A DNA stretch of 11,751 nt from a bacterium (GTDB lineage: Bacteria > CSSED10-310 > JAJRTK01), in NCBI GenBank assembly GCA_024278345.1, contig JAJRTK010000434.1, positions 1-11,751 on the forward strand, written 5' to 3'. The position numbers and the translations under genes were made by a program. Each line of letters opens with the position of its first letter. Position 1 is the first letter of the stretch. Below, in pieces: positions 344-11,751 of this stretch. The notes under the pieces were generated by a model. That model searched no databases and was not told where the DNA came from. It was given only the letters and a program-made list of their open reading frames with translations.

Positions 344-2200
344 TCAAGGAGGTTCTTTCCTCAAGCCGGAAGGCCCCGGCCCGCTGGCGAGAATTGGTAC
401 GATGACCCGGATGCTCGCCTTCAACGGTTTTTTCCATTCCCGCGGACTGGCCCACTTGTATAGCATTGCCCGCCAACGGTTCCGGAAGTGGCGGTCACCC
501 ATCTGGTAATCCGCGGCCAGACGGATGGTCTGGCCCAGGCGGTTGAACCGGGTACGGGTTCTTTCCAGGTTCCAGCCTCGGAGGGCGAGGCAGCTTTCCA
601 AGGGGTGCTCCAACAAAATCCAACCTCCGCCCCCCCATTCCTCCACGAACTGGTTGGAATGGACCCGTTCCAGGAGCAAAGTGGGCCACACTTCGTAGCT
701 GTGGCTCATTCTTTTGGCCACCGGAAGAAGAGGAGATGCCCAGGCCGCAACCAAGACCAGACCCGCCAGGCCGGCAAGAGCCCATATTGGAGCCTGCCGG
801 TCGGTCGAGCAAGGGCTGACCTCGGGATCCGCCGCCGACGTTGTCCCGGCCGCCGGGTCTGCGTTTCCGGGTATCCACGCCCACTTAAGCCGGGACAGAA
901 CAGAAAAAAAAGGAAAATGTGGTGCCGAGCGCAGCGAGATGCCGAGCATAAGCGAGGCCCACCGTACAAAAATGTGGGCTGCGATCCCGTTGCCATTTGT
1001 TGCAACGGGAAGTTGAGCTGGCTCCCTGGTGGGGGCGGGGCAAAGCCCTGCCAGGGGACGGGGGACGGAGTCCCCAGACGACCGCCAAGCGGAGCGAGGC
1101 GTTGCCCGGACGATTGGATTTTCCACAATCCTTGAAGTGTCCCGCCTTGCGTGGATGGCCAAAAAACTTAGCCTCGGAGACCGCCGCGTGCGTTTTCCCT
1201 TTTCGGCACGGGTCATCGTCTCGGCCACCTGATGGGGCCCAGCCGTCCTCGGCTGCGCAAAAGGCCATTTCATCGCAGTCGAGGGCGACTGCGCCACATC
1301 CTTGCCTGGTTCCTGGCCAGAACGATGACCAAGGCCTCCCTTTTCTTTTCCTGGTCTGTCCCGCTTTACGTGGATGCCCGCGTCGGGGCTAGCCCGCCCC
1401 ACAAGCCAGGGAACCACCGGGAGCATGGCCAGAAAGAACGCAATGCCAAGGGCTTCGTGGATCGCGGGTCCCAGGGCCTGGCCCTTCCAGGCGCTTCCCT
1501 GCAAGTGTGCCACGATCCGGAGTGTGTTACAGCCGATTCCAAGGAGCAATGCCTGGATGGGAGCCACGAGCCAGATCCGGTCGAACCGGCCCCTGTAGAG
1601 GTAACCAGCGGCGAGTAAAATAAAAAAAACCCTGATCGTGCTGGAGCCGCTACATTTTTGCCAGACAGGGAATTGGTCCTGTCCGATGAAATAAGAGATT
1701 CCCACCCGCCGCCACGAAACCTTCAGGAACGTCAGGATCCGGTCCACGAACCAGAATGACAGTTCCCGCGACCAGGAGATCAATTCCAGGTTGACCGAAG
1801 GGATCAACAAGATTCCCAGGACCAGGGCAATGGACAAGCAGCGTGTTGCCCGTGGCCGGTAGGCGCAGGCCTCATTCCAGAGGGCCCAGCCCGAGAACCC
1901 GAAGAAGAGTGCCCAAGCGGAAAAGCCGGCCCCTTGCGTCCAGACGGCCAGAGCCAGGAGGCCCAATCCGCCCGCCAGGGACGGCCAATGGCGCGGAAGC
2001 ATTCCAGGTGCGCTCCAGCCCAAGGCCAGGACGCTTCCCATGACCAGAAGCTTGTGGGTTCCGTAGGTGGTGAAGCCCAGGTGCTGGCTCCAAAGGTAGG
2101 CCAGGAGAGCCGGGAAAATCGGAAGGAGCGGCAGGAAAGCCAACAGAAGCTGGCATGGGGGGTTCTTTCGTCCCGGCTTGTCTGAAGGCTTGTGCCACAT
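344..2200 (-). CDS. Exosortase with in-frame C-terminal EpsI-like domain (repeat-interrupted linker)
   Basis: Membrane transpeptidase-like enzyme predicted to cleave PEP-CTERM-type C-terminal sorting signals. The 618 residues from ATG 2200 show a multi-pass N-terminal half (about 15-268) with the exosortase triad: Cys183 in QKCSGSSTIR, Arg228 in CNTLRIVAH and His249 in AIHEALGIAFF. Residues about 274-444 are encoded by palindromic repeat DNA. Residues 471-495 form one membrane span, followed by an EpsI-like soluble domain (DUF3485 type) with EHPLESCLALRGW at 531-543 matching the EpsI 'H.PE.CL...GW' motif. Exosortase-EpsI fusions are known. The frame stays open upstream to 2509, but that part is repeat DNA and the membrane protein begins at MWHKPSDK, so I chose 2200; its ribosome site is weak. 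Alternatively these were two genes whose boundary was overwritten: no Met precedes the EpsI span except one inside the repeat (ATG 949). The natural substrate is probably the VIT protein next upstream. Confidence 0.7.
   Translation of the reverse strand: MWHKPSDKPGRKNPPCQLLLAFLPLLPIFPALLAYLWSQHLGFTTYGTHKLLVMGSVLALGWSAPGMLPRHWPSLAGGLGLLALAVWTQGAGFSAWALFFGFSGWALWNEACAYRPRATRCLSIALVLGILLIPSVNLELISWSRELSFWFVDRILTFLKVSWRRVGISYFIGQDQFPVWQKCSGSSTIRVFFILLAAGYLYRGRFDRIWLVAPIQALLLGIGCNTLRIVAHLQGSAWKGQALGPAIHEALGIAFFLAMLPVVPWLVGRASPDAGIHVKRDRPGKEKGGLGHRSGQEPGKDVAQSPSTAMKWPFAQPRTAGPHQVAETMTRAEKGKRTRRSPRLSFLAIHARRDTSRIVENPIVRATPRSAWRSSGDSVPRPLAGLCPAPTREPAQLPVATNGNGIAAHIFVRWASLMLGISLRSAPHFPFFSVLSRLKWAWIPGNADPAAGTTSAADPEVSPCSTDRQAPIWALAGLAGLVLVAAWASPLLPVAKRMSHSYEVWPTLLLERVHSNQFVEEWGGGGWILLEHPLESCLALRGWNLERTRTRFNRLGQTIRLAADYQMGDRHFRNRWRAMLYKWASPREWKKPLKASIRVIVPILASGPGPSGLRKEPP
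870..1160. repeat. Composite palindromic repeat element with inverted ends, inside the exosortase/EpsI frame
   Basis: The left end (870-897, GGTATCCACGC then GCCGGGACA) and the right end (1138-1160, TGTCCCGCC then TTGCGTGGATGGCC) are inverted copies of one short repeat, giving a MITE-like unit of 291 bases. Inside are an AGCGCAGCGAG/AGCATAAGCGAGG stretch, then at 963-1086 a copy of the hairpin-array repeat beginning CGTACAAAAATGTGGG. Visible stems are 986-993/1002-1009 (CCCGTTGC/GCAACGGG), GCGGGGC-AAA-GCCCTGC and GGGGAC-GGA-GTCCCC. The same two modules in the same order occur after the tryptophanase gene (11612-11751). Confidence 0.75.
1161..1379. repeat. Second palindromic repeat block in the exosortase/EpsI linker
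   Basis: It ends at 1357-1379 with another inverted copy of the short repeat (TGTCCCGC then TTTACGTGGATGCCC), in the same orientation as 1138-1160. Two clean hairpins lie inside: CAGCCG-TCCT-CGGCTG (1240-1255) and CGCAGTCG-AGGG-CGACTGCG (1274-1293). On the coding strand, recognisable exosortase sequence stops just before this block, around residue 273. That makes 1379 the likely repeat/gene boundary. Confidence 0.6.
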
Positions 2201-2205
2201 CTTTG

Positions 2206-2246
2206 GGAGCTGCTTTTCGAGGGTTGGCGGGTGGGAAGTTCTCTTG
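2206..2246. repeat. 41-base direct repeat, copy A
   Basis: It starts GGAGCTGCTTTTCGAGGG and ends GGGAAGTTCTCTTG, and is identical over 41 bases to 2794-2834. Weaker similarity continues a few bases to the left, to the exosortase start codon. On the minus strand this is the sequence immediately upstream of the exosortase ATG, so any native ribosome site or promoter for that gene probably lay in this unit. Confidence 0.9.
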
Positions 2247-2250
2247 AGGG

Positions 2251-2300
2251 GGCCCGCGCCTTGCGTTGCTCGGCAGGCCCGCGCCTTGCGTTGCTCAGCG
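2251..2300. repeat. Tandem repeat, two 25-base units
   Basis: Two adjacent units (2251-2275 and 2276-2300) both begin GGCCCGCGCCTTGCGTTGCT and differ at two positions near their ends. The pair lies between direct-repeat copy A and a hairpin-array repeat, in the non-coding region upstream of the exosortase. Confidence 0.85.
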
Positions 2301-2399
2301 GTCGTCCGAGAATTGTAGCGTGCGGGCCTTCCGGCCCGCACGCATCGGGCTTTGCACCGCACCCACCAGGGGTTTCCTCCCTGAACCCAATTTTTGCAC
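2301..2399 (-). repeat. Hairpin-array repeat copy (minus orientation) with an 11-bp perfect stem
   Basis: Read on the minus strand it begins GTGCAAAAATTGGGTTCAGG, continues with CCCCTGGTGGGTGCGG, and ends in GGACGAC. This is the order seen in the copies at 963-1086 and 11664-11751. It contains a perfect hairpin at 2318-2343: stem GCGTGCGGGCC, loop TTCC, stem GGCCCGCACGC. No protein coding was recognised in it. Confidence 0.7.
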
Positions 2400-2460
2400 G
2401 CTTGATTTGCAGGCAGGCCTTCCGGCCTTGCCCGGCGTCTTTTTTCTTTATTCCGGCCTC

Positions 2461-2711
2461 GGTCATCGGTGGTGCCTTCGGCAGCTCTCGCTCGGACCCG
2501 GCCACCCAATGATTTTTGGAACGCCTCCAGGGCCTCCGGCCCTGGAACCCGGCGGAGGCTCCGCCTCCGAACCTCCGCCAGGAGCGCTGCTCCTGAACCT
2601 CGCCAGGGAGCGCGCTCCCTGGACCCACATCTTTTTGTACGCTACGCCTCTTTTGGACGGGTGGCCGGGTCCGAGCGACAGCGAGAGCTGCCGAAGGCAC
2701 CACCGATGACC
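2461..2711. mobile_element. MITE-like element with ~50-base terminal inverted repeats enclosing a hairpin array
   Basis: Positions 2461-2507 and 2659-2711 are inverted copies. All 47 bases of the left end match the right end, which carries one extra 6-base block (GTCGCT, a short tandem duplication). The ends start GGTCATCGGTGGTGCC and finish CGGCCACCC. Between them lie four hairpins separated by AACC-type linkers: 2527-2545 (CCAGGGCC-TCC-GGCCCTGG), 2553-2569 (CGGAGGC-TCC-GCCTCCG), 2579-2595 (CAGGAGC-GCT-GCTCCTG) and 2603-2622 (perfect palindrome CCAGGGAGCGCGCTCCCTGG). On the minus strand the array is preceded by GTACAAAAAGATGTGGG, so it is a variant of the hairpin-array family. It holds no recognisable gene and would need a transposase in trans if it is mobile. 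Confidence 0.8.
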
Positions 2712-2793
2712 ACCTCCTTGATTCTCCTGCCTTTCCGTTGTTTCATGGGACGCTTTGGGAATGAGGGGATGCTTCAGGGGGAACACAACTTTT

Positions 2794-2834
2794 GGAGCTG
2801 CTTTTCGAGGGTTGGCGGGTGGGAAGTTCTCTTG
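2794..2834. repeat. 41-base direct repeat, copy B
   Basis: Identical to 2206-2246 and 588 bases away in the same orientation. The two copies bracket the tandem repeat, a hairpin-array copy and the MITE-like element. Copy B faces the end of the VIT gene and probably marks the original upstream flank of the exosortase gene before the intervening DNA was inserted or duplicated. Confidence 0.9.
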
Positions 2835-2917
2835 GGGCCGTGGAGTGGAAACGCGGTGGTGAGGGGGGAGGGGCGGCGGACGGACTGCCGGCGACCCGAC
2901 CGGACCCCAACCAAAAG

Positions 2918-2947
2918 AAAAAAATTAGTTTTCAGGGATCTTTCCCT
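2918..2947 (-). terminator. Possible weak intrinsic terminator after the VIT gene
   Basis: Downstream of the VIT stop on the minus strand, a short hairpin AGGGA-AAGA-TCCCT (2947-2934) is followed by GAAAACTAA and a run of seven T. The stem is only 5 bp and the T run begins about nine bases after it, so termination would be partial at best. The rest of 2835-2974 holds nothing I recognise. Confidence 0.3.
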
Positions 2948-2974
2948 TCAGGCCTCCGACGATCCAAGGGAGAG

Positions 2975-5263
2975 CTAGTGTGGCCGAGGAAGATTCGCCC
3001 TTGCGGTGACTTTCCTTCGGCGCATGGCCAGAAAGATGAGGGTCGCGCTTCCAAGCAAAAGGAGAAGCCACTCTTCGGGTTCGGGGATTCCGCCCTTGCT
3101 CATGCCCTTGAGATCGTACATCTGGGCGGTCCCGAACTGTTGGGGTGTGAAGCCGTACCGTTTCTGGAGATCCTTGGGGAGGGCGATAAATGCGGTTTCA
3201 GAGCTGATGAAGCTGAATCTTTTGGAGAGTTTGACGACCTTGGCGCGAAGCCCGGCGAGCTCGGTCAATGTTTCTGAAGTTGCGTCTTCGCTCTTTCCTT
3301 GCCGCCTACTGGTCCCATCGAGCCAAGCAATGCGGCTATTCAGCATCTCCACTTGGGGGCGGGCATGAAGGGCGCCCACGAACCGAGAAGCGCGGTTTCC
3401 CGGCTCCAGCTTCAGGTCGGCCTTCAACGTGGTGACCGTAGGCGTTCCCATCAGGGCGGCGGGAGTCCAATCTTGTTGTTCGTTGAACGGATTGACGATT
3501 TCGACGCTGGCCGTGCCGCTTCCGGAGAAGGTGCCCGACAGCCAGAGGATCCCCATTTGGCCGGGCTTTGGTTTTTGTCCCGACCACCAGCGGTTGCCGG
3601 TATCGACGGCAACCTGTATCAGATCGACGGGTCCGGAGACGCGGACTTGGGGGACGGCGGGGCTGAGGTTCGGGAGCTTCGACCAGAGCTCCGCCAGACG
3701 GCGGGGGCTGAGCTTGGCCAACCCGAGCTCCGCCATGATTCGGGATTGAAGAACATTGATCCGGCCAGTATAGGAGTGCCGAATCCTCTGCCATCCCGTG
3801 TCAATGGCATAGGAGCTGACGTTTGGAAGTTCGAGGATCTCGGGGATTTCTAGCGCTTTGCGGCCCAGCAGGATGAAGTGGATTTTGGGTCTTTGCCGGA
3901 TCAGCTCGGTGAGTTTTTTCCATTGGGAGGCATCGATCTTGCCCAGGATGAGGTAAACCAGGTCGCAGCCGCCCTTCCCGGTAGCGCCCCGAAGGTGCCC
4001 GACCAGATCGATATCCTCCGTGGCATCCTTGCCACCGGAGGCCCGCTGTCGTTGAAAGCTCTGGCTGATCTCCTTGAAGAGATCTTGGAAAGGGAGGGGC
4101 TGCGAGGTGGCGACGGGCGGGAAGAAGTCGTTCATCTTTCCACTGTCGCTCAGCCGCAGTGGCCGCCACGAGATCTGGAAGCGATTGCTCTTGTCCATCT
4201 GAAGAAAGGTGAGCATTCCAAGGAACTCCTCCAAAAGCTGCTCCGGCCTGTTTTGCTTCTTGTGGATGAGCTCGCTTTTGGCGCGCCAGACACCCAGGTA
4301 GACGGATCGCTGGCCAGTAGTGGGCTTCTGGATGGTCTTCGAATCGGGAGCTTGAAAGAGGATCCGCGTATTGAAGAAGTTTTCGGCGCCTTCAGAAAAG
4401 GTCAAGGATGAAGCAGAGATGGGGGAGTCGAGCTCGAGTCCATATCGGAGGACCAGTTTTTCCGGGACTTTCTGGTTGAATCGCACGCGGATGAGCCTTC
4501 GCCGATCATCCAACTTCCGGATTTCCGCCCGGCCATGGGAAACCTCGAGATCCACAAGGCGCAACCGGTCCTTGACATAGATGGAGACCTCCGTCACCTG
4601 GCTTCGAACAGCGCCGTGCCGGTCGTCCCAGGGGCCGGTTAATCGGGCAATAGGCAGCGTGAGCTCGAATTTACCGTTGACAAGGGGCAGCCGCCGGTGG
4701 CTTACCAGCTCGATCTGTTTGTTTTCTCCAGGGGTGATGGGAAAAACCCTGAGCTCGAAGCGATTTTGCGTTTGCCGGACAAGGCCGGGATCGCGCCTCA
4801 TTTCCGGTGCTTCGTCGCCGGTGACCTCTTTGTAGGCTTGCTCGGCCCGGGTTCGTTCCTCGATGCTTCCCACCAGCCGCCGGCCGCGGTCCCAGAGAGT
4901 GAACCCCGTGATCTGCCTGTCCTGCTCCAGCGGCATGGTGAAGGCGTAGCCCTGATTCGACGTGTCGTGGTTGTGGTAAACTTGGAGGAGTCGCGTGAAG
5001 GCGATGCCATCCACCAGGGCGACATCGATCCGTGTGTAGGGGATGGAGACAGCCCCGTCGGTGGGTTGGATGGGTGGAATTTTCGACCTGACGACGCTCT
5101 GGATCGGCTCGAAAAAAGTGCCCCGCCTCGGAATGTCGGGATCGGGGGGCGGAGCCATGCCGGTGGCCATGGCCAGGCTGCCTTCCAGGAGAAGGGCGAC
5201 CATCAACGAGACGCCCGAGACAATGCGGCGGTGATTTCGAGGATCAGGCCAGGAGGTAGACAT
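2975..5263 (-). CDS. Secreted VIT-domain protein with C-terminal PEP-CTERM sorting signal
   Basis: 762 residues. An N-terminal signal peptide (RR, then hydrophobic IVSGVSLMVALLLEGSLAMA) is followed by a vault/inter-alpha-trypsin (VIT) domain at about 70-205, with the usual GSIEERTRAEQAYKEV and NRFELRVFPITPGE segments. The middle (320-490) sits where VIT proteins carry a VWA domain, but no DxSxS metal-binding motif is visible. Residues 672-694 (KVVKLSKRFSFISSETAFIAL) match the conserved C-terminal 'Y.L.T.YTSF.A' block of VIT/VWA proteins. The end is a textbook PEP-CTERM signal: PEP at 727-729, hydrophobic 732-747, RRRK at 748-751, then 11 extra residues. It is therefore predicted to cross the inner membrane and be cut and anchored or released by the neighbouring exosortase. 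ATG 5263 was chosen because AAGGAAAGG sits 8 bases upstream and a signal peptide follows; the frame is open to ATG 5392, but that start would bury the signal. Confidence 0.88.
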   Translation of the reverse strand: MSTSWPDPRNHRRIVSGVSLMVALLLEGSLAMATGMAPPPDPDIPRRGTFFEPIQSVVRSKIPPIQPTDGAVSIPYTRIDVALVDGIAFTRLLQVYHNHDTSNQGYAFTMPLEQDRQITGFTLWDRGRRLVGSIEERTRAEQAYKEVTGDEAPEMRRDPGLVRQTQNRFELRVFPITPGENKQIELVSHRRLPLVNGKFELTLPIARLTGPWDDRHGAVRSQVTEVSIYVKDRLRLVDLEVSHGRAEIRKLDDRRRLIRVRFNQKVPEKLVLRYGLELDSPISASSLTFSEGAENFFNTRILFQAPDSKTIQKPTTGQRSVYLGVWRAKSELIHKKQNRPEQLLEEFLGMLTFLQMDKSNRFQISWRPLRLSDSGKMNDFFPPVATSQPLPFQDLFKEISQSFQRQRASGGKDATEDIDLVGHLRGATGKGGCDLVYLILGKIDASQWKKLTELIRQRPKIHFILLGRKALEIPEILELPNVSSYAIDTGWQRIRHSYTGRINVLQSRIMAELGLAKLSPRRLAELWSKLPNLSPAVPQVRVSGPVDLIQVAVDTGNRWWSGQKPKPGQMGILWLSGTFSGSGTASVEIVNPFNEQQDWTPAALMGTPTVTTLKADLKLEPGNRASRFVGALHARPQVEMLNSRIAWLDGTSRRQGKSEDATSETLTELAGLRAKVVKLSKRFSFISSETAFIALPKDLQKRYGFTPQQFGTAQMYDLKGMSKGGIPEPEEWLLLLLGSATLIFLAMRRRKVTARANLPRPH

Positions 5264-5271
5264 GGCGTGGG

Positions 5272-5280
5272 CCTTTCCTT
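5272..5280 (-). promoter_or_regulatory. Ribosome binding site that sets the VIT protein start
   Basis: On the minus strand AAGGAAAGG lies 8 bases before ATG 5263. The upstream alternatives in the same frame (ATG 5392 and ATG 5371) lack a comparable site and would place about 40 extra residues before the signal peptide. Confidence 0.65.
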
Positions 5281-5330
5281 GCAAAGAAGGTTGCGTGCCT
5301 GAAAACACTAACCCGGAGCGTCGGGAATTG

Positions 5331-5411
5331 TTTCTGAACGGGGGATCACTTTCGCCGGGAAGGATTTTCATGGTTTCTGAACGGGGGATCATTTTCGCCG
5401 TGAAGAGTTTT
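5331..5411. repeat. Tandem duplication across the transglutaminase stop / VIT upstream junction
   Basis: Two 38-base units, 5331-5368 and 5374-5411 (period 43), both begin TTTCTGAACGGGGGATCA and differ at 4 positions. On the minus strand the unit at 5374-5411 contains the transglutaminase stop overlapping an ATG (ATGA). The other unit contains the same junction as GTGA. The gene junction itself was therefore duplicated, which explains the roughly 125-base spacer before the VIT start in an otherwise overlapping operon. Confidence 0.9.
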
Positions 5412-7506
5412 CTTTCTGCTGCGTTCCGCTCTCATCGGGCGCCGTCCGGCGACCGCTGTTCGCCATTCGTGCCCCTCTTGCCATCAACGACCCAAGGTCT
5501 TGGGCGCCCCCGGGAGGCCTCCTGTATCGGGTCACTCTACCGAGAGCCTCCTGGACCGCGTGAAGATCGGCTGGCGATAACCGGATTTCGCCATATCGGG
5601 CGTCGCAAAAGGCATGGGTGACCAGCCTTGCCTCCCCCACGAGAGGAAAACCGGTGCGCTGGAGCTCCGCCAAGAGCTCCAGCGGTGTTTGACTGGGCCT
5701 CAGCCGGTAGCCCCAGCGTGCCAATTCATGGAGGAGTCGTCCATAGAAATGGGAGATCCGTTCCCTGGCCGTGGAAGTCGGTTTTTTCCGGCTCCAGCGC
5801 CAGTTCGGGATGCCCCTGCCAAGGCGCTGGAAGAGGATTCCTGTTCCCAGGGCCAAAAAGGCCAGAAGGAGAGGGTAGAGCCCCGCTCCCAGGGCGGCGA
5901 GCGACCATTTTGCCAAAGTGAAGATAGAGCCCAGAACCTGTTTGTGCTCCTCTGATCGGTAGAAAACCACGTACTGGTACCAGCTATCCACCACCCAGTC
6001 ATAGAGATTGGTATAGAGCGATTTCGGGGCGCCACGGATCTCTTCGCCATAGGGAGTGGCGTCGAAGGTGACCCAACCTTTCTTCTCCAGATAGGCTTCC
6101 ACCCAGGCGTGCCCCTGGCGAGGCGTGATCCTGTATCCTTCACCCCGGCGCGACTCTTCCGTGGGCAGGTAGCCCAACACCACGCGTGCCGGGATCGATT
6201 TCAGCCGGAGCAATGTGGCGAGGGCCGAAGCGAACCTTTCGCAGTGGCCTGTCTGGACCTCGAAGATGAACTCCTCCACGGGATTCAAGCGGGAGAGATC
6301 CGGGGCACCCAGCTCGTAGGTGAAGTTCCTGTAGAGCCGTTCTTCCAGCTTTTTCGCCACGGTTTCGGGATCGGTGGCATTCCCCGTCCCCCGGTCGATC
6401 CAGTCCAGCAGTCTCTTGGAGCGCCAGGGCAGATCGATGAGGCGCCGCCGTTCCGCACGGGTCAGGGGCTCCGGGTTGGGAGTTGAGTTCACCCAGTAAC
6501 GGTATTCCGGGCGTTCCGGGTTCAGAACCGCGGCGATTTTGTAGCTTCCTTGCCGAAGCAGCTTGACTCGTTCAAAATAATCGCCCTGGATCGCGGCCGC
6601 CAGCCCATCGATGGGAACCTGTAGCCTCACGGCATCCAGATCGAGGATTCGAACTGTACGTAGCTTCATGCCGGCGGGAGGCTCGGTGGGCATCCACCGT
6701 TTGCGCTCCAAGCCTTCCACCGAAGGTCTCCAGGTGTCGCCGTTGAACTGATCGAGACGGTGGGTGGCGAGATAGCCGATCTCTTCGCCTTCTATCTCGA
6801 ACAGGGGCCGGTTTCCGGAACGCTGGCCCCCTCTGGCGGCGTCCAACATGGGCGAAACGAGGCCCATGGAGAGCCCGCCTCCCCTGAATTCGGCCCGGGG
6901 GCAGAGAACGAAGAAAAGCAGCGTGAAAGCAACGGCGAACAGCCAGGGCATCAGGCCCAGCGGCGCGTTTTCCTCCGCCCGGTCCCAGTCCCAAGTGGTG
7001 GCGGCCTCTTTCGGAGCCTGCCCTCTCCTTTTCTCCCGGTTGTCCCCGGTTTTCGGGCGCTCCCTTGTGGCCGTCTCATACCGCATCGCTTCGAGCTCGA
7101 AGAAGGCTCGGGGAAGGAGCGCTACCGCTCCAGCGAACAAAAGGCCGAACTTGTAGTCGAAGATTGCCAGGCTTCCAATGGCCACGTGGGTCATGGCAAT
7201 GAGAAGAGAGAAGAGCGCCTCCCGCTGCTCGTTGGGCCGGAGCAACCGCAAGAACTGGAGGGCCAGGAGCGGGTACCCCAAGGCGACAAAAACAGGGATT
7301 TCCGTCTTTTTGGCCACGATATAGGAAGCGGGCAAGAGAAAGAGGAGCAAGAGAGCCTCGAATTCCTGGCCGATGACGCGTCGATCACGTCTCAGCCGGT
7401 CGCCCAGCAACCAAATACCGACGAAGAAGGCCAGGAGAAGAAGGTTGGCGCTGGCAAGCCCCTGGCTGACGAAACCCAGCAGGATGAGTCTTCGCGTGGC
7501 AATCAT
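5389..7506 (-). CDS. TgpA-like membrane transglutaminase (DUF3488-transglutaminase-DUF4129 type)
   Basis: 705 residues. The N-terminal part has about six membrane spans (8-35, 51-64, 70-89, 97-116, 120-136, 185-203), as in DUF3488 proteins. A transglutaminase core facing outside follows at about 380-490, with a complete Cys-His-Asp triad: Cys422 in QTGHCERFASALATLLR, His466 in RQGHAWVEAYL and Asp482 in WVTFDATP. One further span lies at 525-559, then a cytoplasmic DUF4129-like tail (585-660). Such proteins cross-link or hydrolyse proteins or peptides in the periplasm; the substrate is unknown. ATG 7506 overlaps the DUF58 stop as ATGA, implying translational coupling, and membrane spans begin there. 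The frame is open upstream to 8544 but only as a shadow of the DUF58 gene. The last residues (KENSSRRK) are encoded by the tandem-duplicated junction, so the native C-terminus may have differed slightly. Confidence 0.92.
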   Translation of the reverse strand: MIATRRLILLGFVSQGLASANLLLLAFFVGIWLLGDRLRRDRRVIGQEFEALLLLFLLPASYIVAKKTEIPVFVALGYPLLALQFLRLLRPNEQREALFSLLIAMTHVAIGSLAIFDYKFGLLFAGAVALLPRAFFELEAMRYETATRERPKTGDNREKRRGQAPKEAATTWDWDRAEENAPLGLMPWLFAVAFTLLFFVLCPRAEFRGGGLSMGLVSPMLDAARGGQRSGNRPLFEIEGEEIGYLATHRLDQFNGDTWRPSVEGLERKRWMPTEPPAGMKLRTVRILDLDAVRLQVPIDGLAAAIQGDYFERVKLLRQGSYKIAAVLNPERPEYRYWVNSTPNPEPLTRAERRRLIDLPWRSKRLLDWIDRGTGNATDPETVAKKLEERLYRNFTYELGAPDLSRLNPVEEFIFEVQTGHCERFASALATLLRLKSIPARVVLGYLPTEESRRGEGYRITPRQGHAWVEAYLEKKGWVTFDATPYGEEIRGAPKSLYTNLYDWVVDSWYQYVVFYRSEEHKQVLGSIFTLAKWSLAALGAGLYPLLLAFLALGTGILFQRLGRGIPNWRWSRKKPTSTARERISHFYGRLLHELARWGYRLRPSQTPLELLAELQRTGFPLVGEARLVTHAFCDARYGEIRLSPADLHAVQEALGRVTRYRRPPGGAQDLGSLMARGARMANSGRRTAPDESGTQQKENSSRRK

Positions 7507-8765
7507 AGCCGGGGTTGTCCCACAGGCGGAGCGCCACCCACGGAATGCGGGCCATAGCGGTGGAGAGTCAAGCCCGGGCTGATGGCCTCCACTCTTGCCG
7601 GGGCCGGAAGATAGATCTCCACGGGGCGCCGGCCAACCCGACCTTCCCGGAAGAACCGGGCCACCTCCGGATCGAGCTTCCAAAGAACAAAGCAAAGGCT
7701 TGATCTTTTGGGCAACAGGCTGACGGCTTCTTCCAACCGCCTGGCAGTCAGGTTCGCTCCGTCGTTCCCGATCCGGGCCAGGGCTTCCAGGAGCTCGTCG
7801 CCGTGGGAGAAGGGAGGAATTGACATGGGAGTCAGCCCAGAGAGATCGATGAAGCTCAGATGGTGCCCCGCATCCAGAGCCGCGAAAGCCAGGGAGGCCA
7901 CGGCCCGGGCCGCCCAGTCCAGGGTTGATTCTTCTTTCCCTGTTTTCACCACTCGTCCCCCGAAGGCTTTCCAGCGGAAGAAGGTTTCCCGGGCCTGGGA
8001 GGAGTGGCCCAGTGCCATGGCCAGAGCGCCCGCCTCTCCCCCGTCTTTCATGGTACGCATCGTCCTTGGATCGAGGAGAATGGAAACCCGGCCCGCCAGC
8101 TCCCGCTGGAACTCCTTCACCTGGAGGCCCTGGCCCTTGGCGCTGGACCGCCAATGGATGAGCCGTGGCGGGTCGCCGGGCTGGATGGGCCGGACCCCCA
8201 CGAACTCGCCGCCGCTCCGGGATTTGTGGGCTCCGGTGAAGGAGCCGCCCAAAAGCGGCTCGAACCCGGCTGCGCGGGGAGGAAGGCAGCCATAAACCCG
8301 TGGAAGCACAACGATCTCTCCGCGAAGGCCCAGTTTCCGGCTGGCCTTGACGAGGCCGAAGGGATAGCTCGATTCCAGGACGAGATCCCGAACCTCGTAA
8401 ACTCCGCGCCTTGGAAGCAGGAGTTCGGGGGTTTTGTGGAGGAGCTGGCCCGGGGCCAGGGGCCCGATCCGAAGAGCGGTACCCCAGGGCGCCTGGACGG
8501 TGGCCAGGCCCGCGCCGCGGAGGGACCGGTTGGCGATGCCCCATTGCCCATCCAGCCGGTCGCCTTCCGTGGCCGTCATCTTCGAAGGCAGCTCGATCTC
8601 CAGCGCTCGGACGCTCCAGCGGGCCGCCACGGCGTTCAGGATAAAACAGCTCAAAAGGAGGCCCACCACCAAGAAAAGGAGCGACGTCTCCGACCGCTGT
8701 GCGCCAAGATAGAAGAGGAGAGTCAGGGCGGCGAAAGCGCCGCCGGTCTTCGTGGGCCGGATCAT
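7503..8765 (-). CDS. DUF58-domain protein
   Basis: 420 residues. Two N-terminal membrane spans (about 9-25 and 29-48) precede a beta-rich region with SSYPFGL (132-138). Then comes the DUF58 hallmark at about 185-219: GGEFVGVRPIQPGDPPRLIH, followed by WRSSAKGQGLQVKEF. The C-terminal part (VSILLDPRTM onward) has the VWA-like fold typical of the family. DUF58 proteins are nearly always encoded next to MoxR ATPases and transglutaminases and are thought to act with them in envelope assembly or chaperoning; the biochemical role is not established. Start ATG 8765 overlaps the moxR stop (ATGA), and its own stop overlaps the next start the same way, so the three genes are almost certainly one translationally coupled unit. 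Confidence 0.93.
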   Translation of the reverse strand: MIRPTKTGGAFAALTLLFYLGAQRSETSLLFLVVGLLLSCFILNAVAARWSVRALEIELPSKMTATEGDRLDGQWGIANRSLRGAGLATVQAPWGTALRIGPLAPGQLLHKTPELLLPRRGVYEVRDLVLESSYPFGLVKASRKLGLRGEIVVLPRVYGCLPPRAAGFEPLLGGSFTGAHKSRSGGEFVGVRPIQPGDPPRLIHWRSSAKGQGLQVKEFQRELAGRVSILLDPRTMRTMKDGGEAGALAMALGHSSQARETFFRWKAFGGRVVKTGKEESTLDWAARAVASLAFAALDAGHHLSFIDLSGLTPMSIPPFSHGDELLEALARIGNDGANLTARRLEEAVSLLPKRSSLCFVLWKLDPEVARFFREGRVGRRPVEIYLPAPARVEAISPGLTLHRYGPHSVGGAPPVGQPRL

Positions 8766-9712
8766 ACGGGAACCTTCACCTGCTCCACGAGCTCTTCCAC
8801 AAGGAAGCCGCCCGAAACCGTGGCGAAACGCGAGCCCTTTTTTTGGATCACGCGGTGCTGGAGGACGATAGGTGCGCTCGATTTCACGTCGTCGGGCAAG
8901 ACATAGTCGCGACCGTCGATGAGAGCTAGCGCTTGGGCGTAACGCATCAGATCGAGGGAACCCCGCGGGCTTGCCCCAAACTCCAGCGCTTCGGCCCCCC
9001 GCGTTGCCCGGACGATCTGGACCACGTAGGAAACCAGATCGTCGGCGATTTTTGTTTCCCGCACCCGCCGCTGGATTTTCCGAAGCTCGACCGTATCGAG
9101 GACGGGTTCCAGGTCAATTAACGGGTCTTCCAGCCGTTGGCGCCGGAGCATCTCTTCTTCTTCGGCAGCCTCCAGATAGCCGATGCTCAGGCGAATCATG
9201 AAGCGGTCCATCTGGGAAAAGGGCAAGGGATAGGTACCTTCCAGCTCGATGGGATTTTGTGTGGCGATGACAAAGAAAGGAGGCTGCAAGATGTGGCGTT
9301 CGCCGTCGATGGTCACCTGCCCCTCCTCCATGGCTTCCAGGAGGCTCGATTGGGTTCTGGGGGTGGCCCGATTGATTTCATCGGCTAGAAGGACATTGGC
9401 GAAGATGGGTCCTTCTTGGAAGAGAAACTCACCCGACTGTTGCTGGTAGACGTTGAGGCCGGTGATATCGGACGGGAGCAGGTCGGCGGTGAACTGGATC
9501 CGCCGGAACTCGCCGGCCACGGACCGTGCGATGGCCTTGGCCAAAAGGGTCTTGCCCACGCCGGGAACATCTTCTAGAAGGACGTGGCCATCCGAGATCA
9601 GAGCGGCCACGCTTTCGAGGATCACCCGGCGCTTACCGACGATGGCCTTCTGGACGTTTCCGATGAGCCCATGGAGCTTCTGGGCAATGGCTTCGTGGTT
9701 CTTCGCCGGCAT
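8762..9712 (-). CDS. MoxR-family AAA+ ATPase
   Basis: 316 residues, the normal length for MoxR proteins. Seen directly: Walker A GVGKT (51-55, within LLEDVPGVGKTLLAKA), Walker B VLLADEIN (Asp111, Glu112), sensor-1 region ATQNP (Asn153), QMDRF (167-171) and the sensor-2 region ASPRG (247-251). MoxR ATPases act as chaperone-like assembly factors, usually with a DUF58 or VWA protein encoded beside them, as here. ATG 9712 (MPAKNHEAIAQKLHG) was chosen because family homology starts there; the frame is open 30 codons further up, but that stretch does not look like MoxR. A GGGAG lies 12 bases upstream, a rather long spacing. It is the first gene of the minus-strand operon, divergent from the tryptophanase gene. 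Confidence 0.93.
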   Translation of the reverse strand: MPAKNHEAIAQKLHGLIGNVQKAIVGKRRVILESVAALISDGHVLLEDVPGVGKTLLAKAIARSVAGEFRRIQFTADLLPSDITGLNVYQQQSGEFLFQEGPIFANVLLADEINRATPRTQSSLLEAMEEGQVTIDGERHILQPPFFVIATQNPIELEGTYPLPFSQMDRFMIRLSIGYLEAAEEEEMLRRQRLEDPLIDLEPVLDTVELRKIQRRVRETKIADDLVSYVVQIVRATRGAEALEFGASPRGSLDLMRYAQALALIDGRDYVLPDDVKSSAPIVLQHRVIQKKGSRFATVSGGFLVEELVEQVKVPV

Positions 9713-10218: not shown

Positions 10219-10225
10219 TATGTCC

Positions 10226-11605
10226 ATGTTCAAGACCATTATCGAGCCGTTCCGCATCAAGAGTGTCGAAGCGATCCGCATGACCACCGGGGAAGAGAGG
10301 CGCCGCTTGATCCGGGATGTCGATTTCAACGTCTTTCTCTTGCAGTCTCGGGACGTGATTATCGACCTTCTCACCGACAGCGGAACCGGGGCCATGAGCG
10401 CGGAACAATGGGCCGCCGTCATGCGTGGCGACGAATCCTATGCCGGAAGTCCGTCGTTCTATCGCTTCGAGCGCGCTGTGCAAGATCTCATGGGGTTTCC
10501 TCACGTGATCCCGGTCCACCAGGGCAGAGCGGCGGAGCGGATCCTTTTTTCCGTCATGTGCCGCCCTGGCGATGTCGTGCCCAATAACACCCACTTCGAT
10601 ACGACCCGCGCCAATGTCGAATTTCAGGGGGCCACGGCTCTGGACTTGCCCTGCGCTGAGTCCAGGGAATTCGACTCGGATTTCCCGTTCAAGGGGAACA
10701 TGGATATCGAGGGGTTGCGAAGGGCTTTCGAGACCCACGACCGCGAGAAGATTCCCTTGGTCATGGTCACCGTCACCAACAACTCGGGCGGCGGTCAACC
10801 GGTTTCCCTGGAAAATCTTCGGCAGGTGGCCGAGGTCTGCCGGGAATACGCTCGCCCGCTCTACCTCGATGCCTGCCGCTTCGCCGAAAATGCCTATCTC
10901 ATCAAGCTCAACGAGAAGGGACACGAGGATCGCGGCGTCAAGGAAATCGTGGCCGAAATGTTTGCTCTGGCCGACGGTTGCACCATGTCCGCGAAGAAGG
11001 ACGCCATCGTCAATATCGGGGGCTTCCTGGCCACCCGCGATCCCGACCTCGCACGGCAGGAGAAGGACCTCTTGATCCTCACCGAGGGTTTTCCCACTTA
11101 CGGCGGTTTGGCGGGTCGCGACCTCGAAGCCATGGCCGTGGGGCTCAAGGAAGTCGTGGAGGAAGACTATCTCCGCTACCGCATCATGTCCACCCGGTAC
11201 CTGGGCAGGCACCTCGTGGAGATGGGCGTGCCCATCATCCAGCCTCCCGGGGGGCACGCTATCTACATCGATGCCGCCAGGTTCGCGCCTCAGATCCCAC
11301 CGCTCCGGCTTCCGGGGATTTCGCTGACCGTGGAGCTTTACGTTCTTGGTGGCATTCGGGGCGTGGAAATCGGGACCGCCATGTTCGGCCGGCGCGATCC
11401 CGAAACCGGAGAAGAAATGCCGGCACGCAAGGAGCTGGTCCGGCTGGCGATTCCCAGAAGGACCTACACCCAAAGCCACATCGATTACGTTGTAGAGGTC
11501 GTCGGGGAGCTTTACAAGACCCGCGACACCATGCCTGGCTACCGGATTACGCACCAGGCCAACTTTCTCCGTCACTTCACGGCTCGGTACGCGCAGGTGG
11601 AGTAG
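10226..11605 (+). CDS. tnaA: Tryptophanase (beta-eliminating lyase; tyrosine phenol-lyase relative)
   Basis: PLP-dependent enzyme of the TnaA/tyrosine phenol-lyase family, 459 residues, full length. Tryptophanase converts L-tryptophan to indole, pyruvate and ammonia in the cytoplasm. Visible: EPFRIKSVE start, IDLLTDSGTGAMS (46-58), HQGR (98-101), NNSGGGQPVS (185-194), the PLP site MSAKKDA (254-260; Lys258 as Schiff-base lysine by alignment), EGFPTYGGLAGRD (287-299) and LRHFTAR at the end. The backbone reads closer to tyrosine phenol-lyase, but three positions are of tryptophanase type. Asp125 stands where the phenol-lyase has Thr124, Ile382 where it has Arg381, and His450 where it has Phe448 (His463 in E. 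coli TnaA). I therefore favour tryptophanase; activity on other beta-substituted amino acids is possible. It is a single gene, with no permease visible in the window. Start at 10226 because GGAGG is 7 bases upstream. Confidence 0.88.
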   Translation: MFKTIIEPFRIKSVEAIRMTTGEERRRLIRDVDFNVFLLQSRDVIIDLLTDSGTGAMSAEQWAAVMRGDESYAGSPSFYRFERAVQDLMGFPHVIPVHQGRAAERILFSVMCRPGDVVPNNTHFDTTRANVEFQGATALDLPCAESREFDSDFPFKGNMDIEGLRRAFETHDREKIPLVMVTVTNNSGGGQPVSLENLRQVAEVCREYARPLYLDACRFAENAYLIKLNEKGHEDRGVKEIVAEMFALADGCTMSAKKDAIVNIGGFLATRDPDLARQEKDLLILTEGFPTYGGLAGRDLEAMAVGLKEVVEEDYLRYRIMSTRYLGRHLVEMGVPIIQPPGGHAIYIDAARFAPQIPPLRLPGISLTVELYVLGGIRGVEIGTAMFGRRDPETGEEMPARKELVRLAIPRRTYTQSHIDYVVEVVGELYKTRDTMPGYRITHQANFLRHFTARYAQVE

Positions 11606-11611
11606 ACTGGG

Positions 11612-11751
11612 GGGTATCCACGCAAGGCGGGACAAAGATTGGAAATAAAAGGAAAACGCGCAGCGCACAAAAATGTGGGTCCAGGGAGCGAGCTCCCTGG
11701 TGGGTGCAGGGCGAAGTCCTGCCAGGGGACGGGGGACAGCGTCCCCGGACG
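11612..11751 (+). repeat. Composite palindromic repeat (short repeat + hairpin array), runs off the window
   Basis: It begins 7 bases after the tryptophanase stop with the short repeat (11612-11634: GGGTATCCACGC then AAGGCGGGACA). An A-rich stretch follows, then from 11664 the hairpin array GCGCACAAAAATGTGGG. Hairpins are CCAGGGAGC-GA-GCTCCCTGG, an imperfect GCAGG...CCTGC and GGGGAC-AGC-GTCCCC. It matches the module order of 870-1086. Its position directly behind a gene suggests it could also work as a transcription terminator or mRNA 3' end, but no T run is visible. Confidence 0.75.

Follow-up and report, generated by a model that had tools for sequence, protein, structure and literature searches.

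Known exosortase systems and the window locus

EpsH-family proteins, which have absolutely conserved Cys, Arg and His residues, often carry an EpsI region or precede one, and their genes lie nearly always among exopolysaccharide (EPS) genes; the function of EpsI was given as unknown in 2006 (PMC1569441). A sorting enzyme with a single target in one genome has been termed a dedicated system, and VIT/VWA-type proteins with LPXTG tails occur beside a dedicated sortase, other members having PEP-CTERM or GlyGly-CTERM tails (PMC3237569). In NCBIfam, XrtN is listed together with a VIT protein of its own, and XrtK has as its neighbours the MSEP-CTERM proteins, in which a VIT domain is present. Literature searches on exosortases with a VIT domain, or on XrtN, XrtK, XrtQ, XrtO or MSEP-CTERM, returned nothing relevant. 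The bifidobacterial PFNA cluster (fn3, aaa-atp, duf58, tgm) places a MoxR-type ATPase, a DUF58 protein and a transglutaminase beside a surface protein (PMC8430577). The window analysed here is an entire contig of 11,751 nt from a genome of 6.06 Mb (550 contigs, 87.9% complete), whose sparsely sampled phylum is represented by eight genomes in the collection used. Five genes were confirmed on its minus strand, coding for a MoxR ATPase, a DUF58 protein and a TgpA-like transglutaminase (together, the trio), a VIT/PEP-CTERM protein, and an exosortase with an EpsI-like part (Table 1). The locus probably consists of a dedicated VIT-exosortase sorting pair standing beside an independent, generic trio.

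With XrtK/MSEP-CTERM the window shares a substrate that contains a VIT domain and whose gene adjoins that of its exosortase, whereas its sorting tail is a different one, the N-terminal multi-helix membrane part is absent from its VIT protein, and its scores against TIGR04287 (23.7 bits) and TIGR04286 (24.7 bits) lie under the cut-offs of 55 and 150. XrtN is likewise an exosortase with a named VIT substrate, and TIGR04477 was the best NCBIfam match of the window VIT protein; however, the score was 46.5 bits with a cut-off of 250, and the window exosortase did not match TIGR04476 (cut-off 200). The XrtO and TIGR02921 models, with cut-offs of 250 and 200, gave 18.1 and 24.4 bits, and XrtQ (NF012182, cut-off 270) had no match from the window. 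Assignment of the exosortase to XrtK, XrtN, XrtO or XrtQ was rejected, and because no curated cut-off was reached the pair is regarded as a diverged member of this kind of system, not of the XrtK or XrtN families. Judged from sequence, it is a strongly diverged case of the known class in which one exosortase serves one VIT substrate.

A further group, XrtQ-like cassettes scoring near NF012182, has the VIT/PEP-CTERM, exosortase and EpsI-like order of the window, the last two sometimes being fused as they are here. Unlike the window, these cassettes lack the trio; moreover, the window exosortase scored 12.5 bits against a profile of cassette exosortases, and its VIT protein has no long N-terminal membrane part. 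The EpsH/EpsI systems differ in their exopolysaccharide genes, none of which was seen at the window. The PFNA cluster agrees with the window trio in its three families and in their order, but has a kinase and an FN3 protein and lacks a VIT protein, a PEP-CTERM tail and an exosortase.

Table 1. Features of the five-gene locus (window positions)
Feature	Position	Strand	Evidence
MoxR-family AAA+ ATPase, 316 aa	8762-9712	-	AAA_3, E 1.1e-62; AAA_lid_2, E 3.6e-21
DUF58 protein, 420 aa	7503-8765	-	PF01882, E 1.5e-5, 24.7 bits (cut-off 23.4)
TgpA-like membrane transglutaminase, 705 aa	5389-7506	-	PF01841, E 4.3e-21; DUF4129 (PF13559); TgpA_N (PF11992)
VIT-domain protein, 762 aa, with signal peptide and C-terminal PEP-CTERM; putative sole substrate	2975-5263	-	PF08487, E 8.9e-15
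PEP-CTERM tail: GIPEPEEW, hydrophobic helix, RRRK	3011-3088	-	Stretch matched by TIGR02595
Repeat-rich spacer between VIT and exosortase genes	2277-2924		Dispersed repeats
Exosortase open reading frame (ORF), whole, 618 aa	344-2200	-	PF09721, E 3.8e-10; TIGR04178, 33.5 bits (cut-off 23)
Exosortase domain	1343-2200	-	TIGR04178, PF09721, aligned catalytic residues
Catalytic residues Cys183, Arg228, His248	1652-1654, 1517-1519, 1457-1459	-	Collinear with exosortases of related cassettes
Dispersed genomic repeat, about 290 bp	869-1160	antisense	Copies 72-94% identical at several loci of the same genome
EpsI-like C-terminal domain	344-868	-	HPxxxC...GW and W...W motifs

The VIT/PEP-CTERM protein and its neighbouring exosortase

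The VIT protein has the features of a PEP-CTERM substrate, namely a signal peptide, a PEP motif, a transmembrane helix, a basic end and a match to TIGR02595, which scored 16.9 bits (cut-off 16) and, when the whole genome was searched, 21.7 bits. Visual reading of the sequence gave the signal peptide, and a predicted helix at residues 8-34 agrees with it. The structural model of the protein had a mean predicted local distance difference test (pLDDT) of 54 and is reliable in the VIT domain (mostly above 80) and the C-terminal helices only. The start that provides the signal peptide, together with a GGAAAGG sequence, is at 5263, 125 nt past the transglutaminase stop, and is most likely the true one; the alternative upstream start at 5392 would also overlap the transglutaminase gene. 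Two 43-nt tandem copies (88% identical, 5327-5412) lie at this junction and create the second possible start.

The exosortase scored 40 bits against PF09721 (cut-off 25.7), which places it in the EpsH superfamily. Its model had a mean pLDDT of 55, with a block of the helical core reaching 96 and the repeat region modelled at low confidence. The first-pass annotation had proposed an exosortase/EpsI enzyme beside the VIT protein, and the exosortase half of that proposal stood. For the other half, the EpsI models TIGR02914 and PF11984 gave no match to the window at E 0.01 and 0.05, respectively, nor did any other Pfam or NCBIfam model match this part. A profile of the third proteins of related cassettes scored 5.3 bits (E 0.8), a value that is non-significant alone, while no shuffled copy was reported; the C-terminal part nevertheless shows HPxxxC...G followed by W...W in the same order as those proteins. 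Because the profile score is non-significant alone, "EpsI-like" denotes a reading of motif order and not a family match.

The VIT protein was the sole PEP-CTERM protein above the cut-off in the whole genome, which is the outcome of a count that the first-pass annotation had called for, and it is encoded in the gene next to the exosortase, as expected of a dedicated system. Two further, short exosortases were found in this genome, on contigs C202 and C517, bringing the number to three. The surroundings of the former included a BNR/PSII-type protein with a VPDPEP tail, a TPR protein and an alanine racemase, and those of the latter an alpha/beta hydrolase, a UbiA-like protein and an MMPL protein; no evident exopolysaccharide genes were seen among the ten proteins tested around them. 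The combination named earlier as telling against a dedicated system, many PEP-CTERM proteins with another EPS-linked exosortase, was therefore not observed. Proteins on C263, C312 and C494 had hydrophobic tails and basic ends without PEP and fell under the TIGR02595 cut-off; the two short exosortases may serve these and the VPDPEP-tailed protein. Since the genome is 87.9% complete and holds three exosortases, the pairing of enzyme and substrate is drawn from adjacency. As a separate observation, the C202 protein (L029:3741-5834; PSII_BNR type, with a VPDPEPVVPG hydrophobic tail) lies a few kb from its short exosortase and is itself a candidate substrate.

A search with the exosortase protein in 386 genomes recovered the window only, and the VIT protein had no relative in the contig collection; conservation was consequently judged from distant cousins. 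In the comparison set, exosortases occurred in 74 genomes and VIT domains in 88. Besides the genome of the window, 5 of the 73 other exosortase-bearing genomes encoded a VIT protein at most 3 kb away from an exosortase: G001, of the same phylum, G167, G370, and G270 and G134, both of one genus. The loci of G270 and G134 (L072 and L073) were XrtK/MSEP-CTERM. Those of G001, G167 and G370 had XrtQ-like exosortases under the XrtQ cut-off, and their VIT proteins ended in IPEP-type tails (e.g. VPTIPEPETW). VIT proteins of relatives at L032-L036 were set aside as ordinary VIT proteins without PEP tails.

Alignment of the VIT proteins of G001, G167 and G370 was used to draw 80 further loci (L076-L155) from the contig collection, of which 42 extend 5 kb or more beyond the VIT gene in both directions. 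Nearly all complete VIT genes among them ended in a PEP-CTERM-like tail. An exosortase was present at 37 loci, nearly always directly downstream of VIT; of the 64 loci whose sequence continues for over 1.5 kb downstream, 33 had it in that position. An EpsI-like domain, separate or fused, was found at 33 of the 80. These cassettes (e.g. L126:9959-13673, from Alteromonadaceae bacterium Bs31, and L133:9872-13622) come from about nine phyla and, judged by their record titles, include Gammaproteobacteria, Hyphomicrobium, Desulfomonile, Planctomycetes, Sumerlaeaceae/BRC1, Verrucomicrobia/Kiritimatiellae, Armatimonadetes, Acidobacteria, Hydrogenedentota and Bacillota. Their exosortases scored 95-176 bits against XrtQ, and none of the exosortase subfamily models that they matched was matched above its cut-off. 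The third cassette protein has no Pfam or NCBIfam family of its own; among NCBIfam models, only the C-terminus of XrtT matched it. At 43 loci (L076, L079, L081, L083, L084 and others, mostly Verrucomicrobia) the same VIT/PEP-CTERM protein was seen and no exosortase was found nearby; the enzyme is presumably encoded elsewhere in the genome or past the contig end.

The earlier proposal that the VIT/PEP-CTERM protein and its own exosortase form a pair is thus well supported by sequence comparison, the protein being the sole one of its kind in the genome and the VIT, exosortase and EpsI-like order recurring in other phyla. What emerges is a compact cassette spread over those phyla, and a single-substrate system of this kind would be a handy test case for the roles of exosortase and EpsI.

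Distribution of the MoxR, DUF58 and transglutaminase genes

Walker A (GVGKT) and Walker B (LADEIN) motifs were both present in MoxR, and the DUF58 protein passed its cut-off narrowly. TgpA-like membership of the transglutaminase is shown by TgpA_N, Transglut_core with an intact C-H-D triad (Cys422, His466, Asp482) and DUF4129; the end of its ORF falls in a dispersed repeat (5407-5475). The ATGA overlaps between MoxR and DUF58 and between DUF58 and the transglutaminase, like the common orientation of the five genes, were read in the sequence as the first-pass annotation had described them.

None of the three trio families was detected at any of the 80 VIT/PEP-CTERM loci within the sequence available, and the trio was likewise absent from the five other VIT-exosortase pairs, two of which have little flanking sequence on one side or on both. 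One weak MoxR match, to a 1,258-aa ORF of L073 (E 4e-4), was not accepted as a MoxR gene. Transglutaminase matches were obtained in 84 of 358 genomes, the window's own included, with at most three candidates scored per genome. Among 18 foreign transglutaminase loci, DUF58 accompanied the enzyme at 16 and MoxR at 12, which indicates that the search detects the trio where it is present; no cassette-type VIT protein or exosortase occurred at any of the 18. In the genome of the window there were five MoxR loci; of the four outside the window, two (C140 and C3) share a contig with a transglutaminase and have no VIT gene.

Because it is absent from related VIT loci, VIT-free elsewhere and multicopy in its own genome, the trio is taken to be a generic module, in agreement with the earlier remark that such trios are common. 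It was rejected as a part of the sorting machinery on its absence from all related loci. The idea of the first-pass annotation that all five genes form one functional system found no support, homologous loci usually without the trio being the very pattern it had named as contrary to it, and with this a false lead is removed.

Weighing the alternatives

On the preferred reading, a dedicated pair beside an unrelated trio, the VIT protein would be exported by Sec and halted in the inner membrane by its PEP-CTERM helix, after which the neighbouring exosortase would cleave it at the PEP motif and hand it on towards the outer surface. The EpsI-like part would be an accessory to the exosortase. Lineage-specific gene order would account for the location of the trio, which is perhaps co-transcribed with the VIT gene. 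The cleavage, the transfer to the surface, the one-to-one specificity and the co-transcription are predictions from gene content and order. The exosortase gene starts 770 nt beyond the VIT stop, across dispersed repeats that include a perfect 32-bp inverted repeat (2461-2492/2680-2711), and its ORF holds a further repeat between the exosortase and C-terminal parts; for these reasons the operon-like stretch is considered to end with the VIT gene.

Several points weigh against the dedicated pair. The repeat within the exosortase ORF could signal a decaying gene, the C202 and C517 exosortases could act on the VIT tail too, and there may conceivably be close relatives in which every VIT-exosortase pair is accompanied by the trio. 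Were the exosortase-EpsI gene a repeat-invaded pseudogene, the PEP-CTERM helix would hold the VIT protein, or one of the other two exosortases would process it. The dispersed repeats in and upstream of the ORF, the barely recognisable EpsI part and the transposase fragment at the contig edge agree with such decay, but the reading frame continues uninterrupted across the repeat, Cys183, Arg228 and His248 are all intact, and the repeat falls at the junction of two domains that many relatives encode as separate genes, so that decay appears unlikely. An ordinary many-substrate PEP-CTERM system, in which the exosortase serves weaker-tailed proteins besides VIT, could draw on the PEP-less tails of the C263, C312 and C494 proteins and the VPDPEP-type tail near the C202 exosortase. 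None of these tails, however, scores high enough to pass the PEP-CTERM model, and the genome offers two other exosortases that could process them; we consider this arrangement very unlikely.

A single surface system of all five products, in which MoxR and DUF58 aid complex folding or insertion and the transglutaminase cross-links the VIT protein, would fit the tight same-strand order, with ATGA overlaps as far as the transglutaminase and a short gap to VIT, as well as the intact catalytic triad and the precedent of the PFNA cluster. It is quite unlikely in view of the separate distributions of trio and cassette, the multicopy MoxR and transglutaminase genes of the genome, and the repeats that set the exosortase gene apart. 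Equally doubtful is a variant in which the trio was recruited to the pair in this poorly sampled lineage; the VIT protein released by the exosortase would then be the target of both an AAA+ chaperone module and a periplasmic transglutaminase and would end up anchored and covalently cross-linked. Nothing beyond adjacency supports the proposed cross-linking.

Of the remaining features in the window, the GC-rich dispersed repeats at 869-1160, 2277-2924, 5407-5475 and 11609-11751 have copies at many other loci of the same genome; some of the four reach into ORFs, namely that of the exosortase and the end of that of the transglutaminase. Promoter and terminator scans of the window performed no better than shuffles, and Rfam and tRNA searches gave no match in it. 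At 3-263, on the plus strand, lies the C-terminal part of a DDE transposase gene (PF01609), truncated by the contig end. Also on the plus strand, at 10223-11605, is a gene of the tryptophanase/tyrosine phenol-lyase family that passed the subfamily cut-off and missed the equivalog cut-offs.

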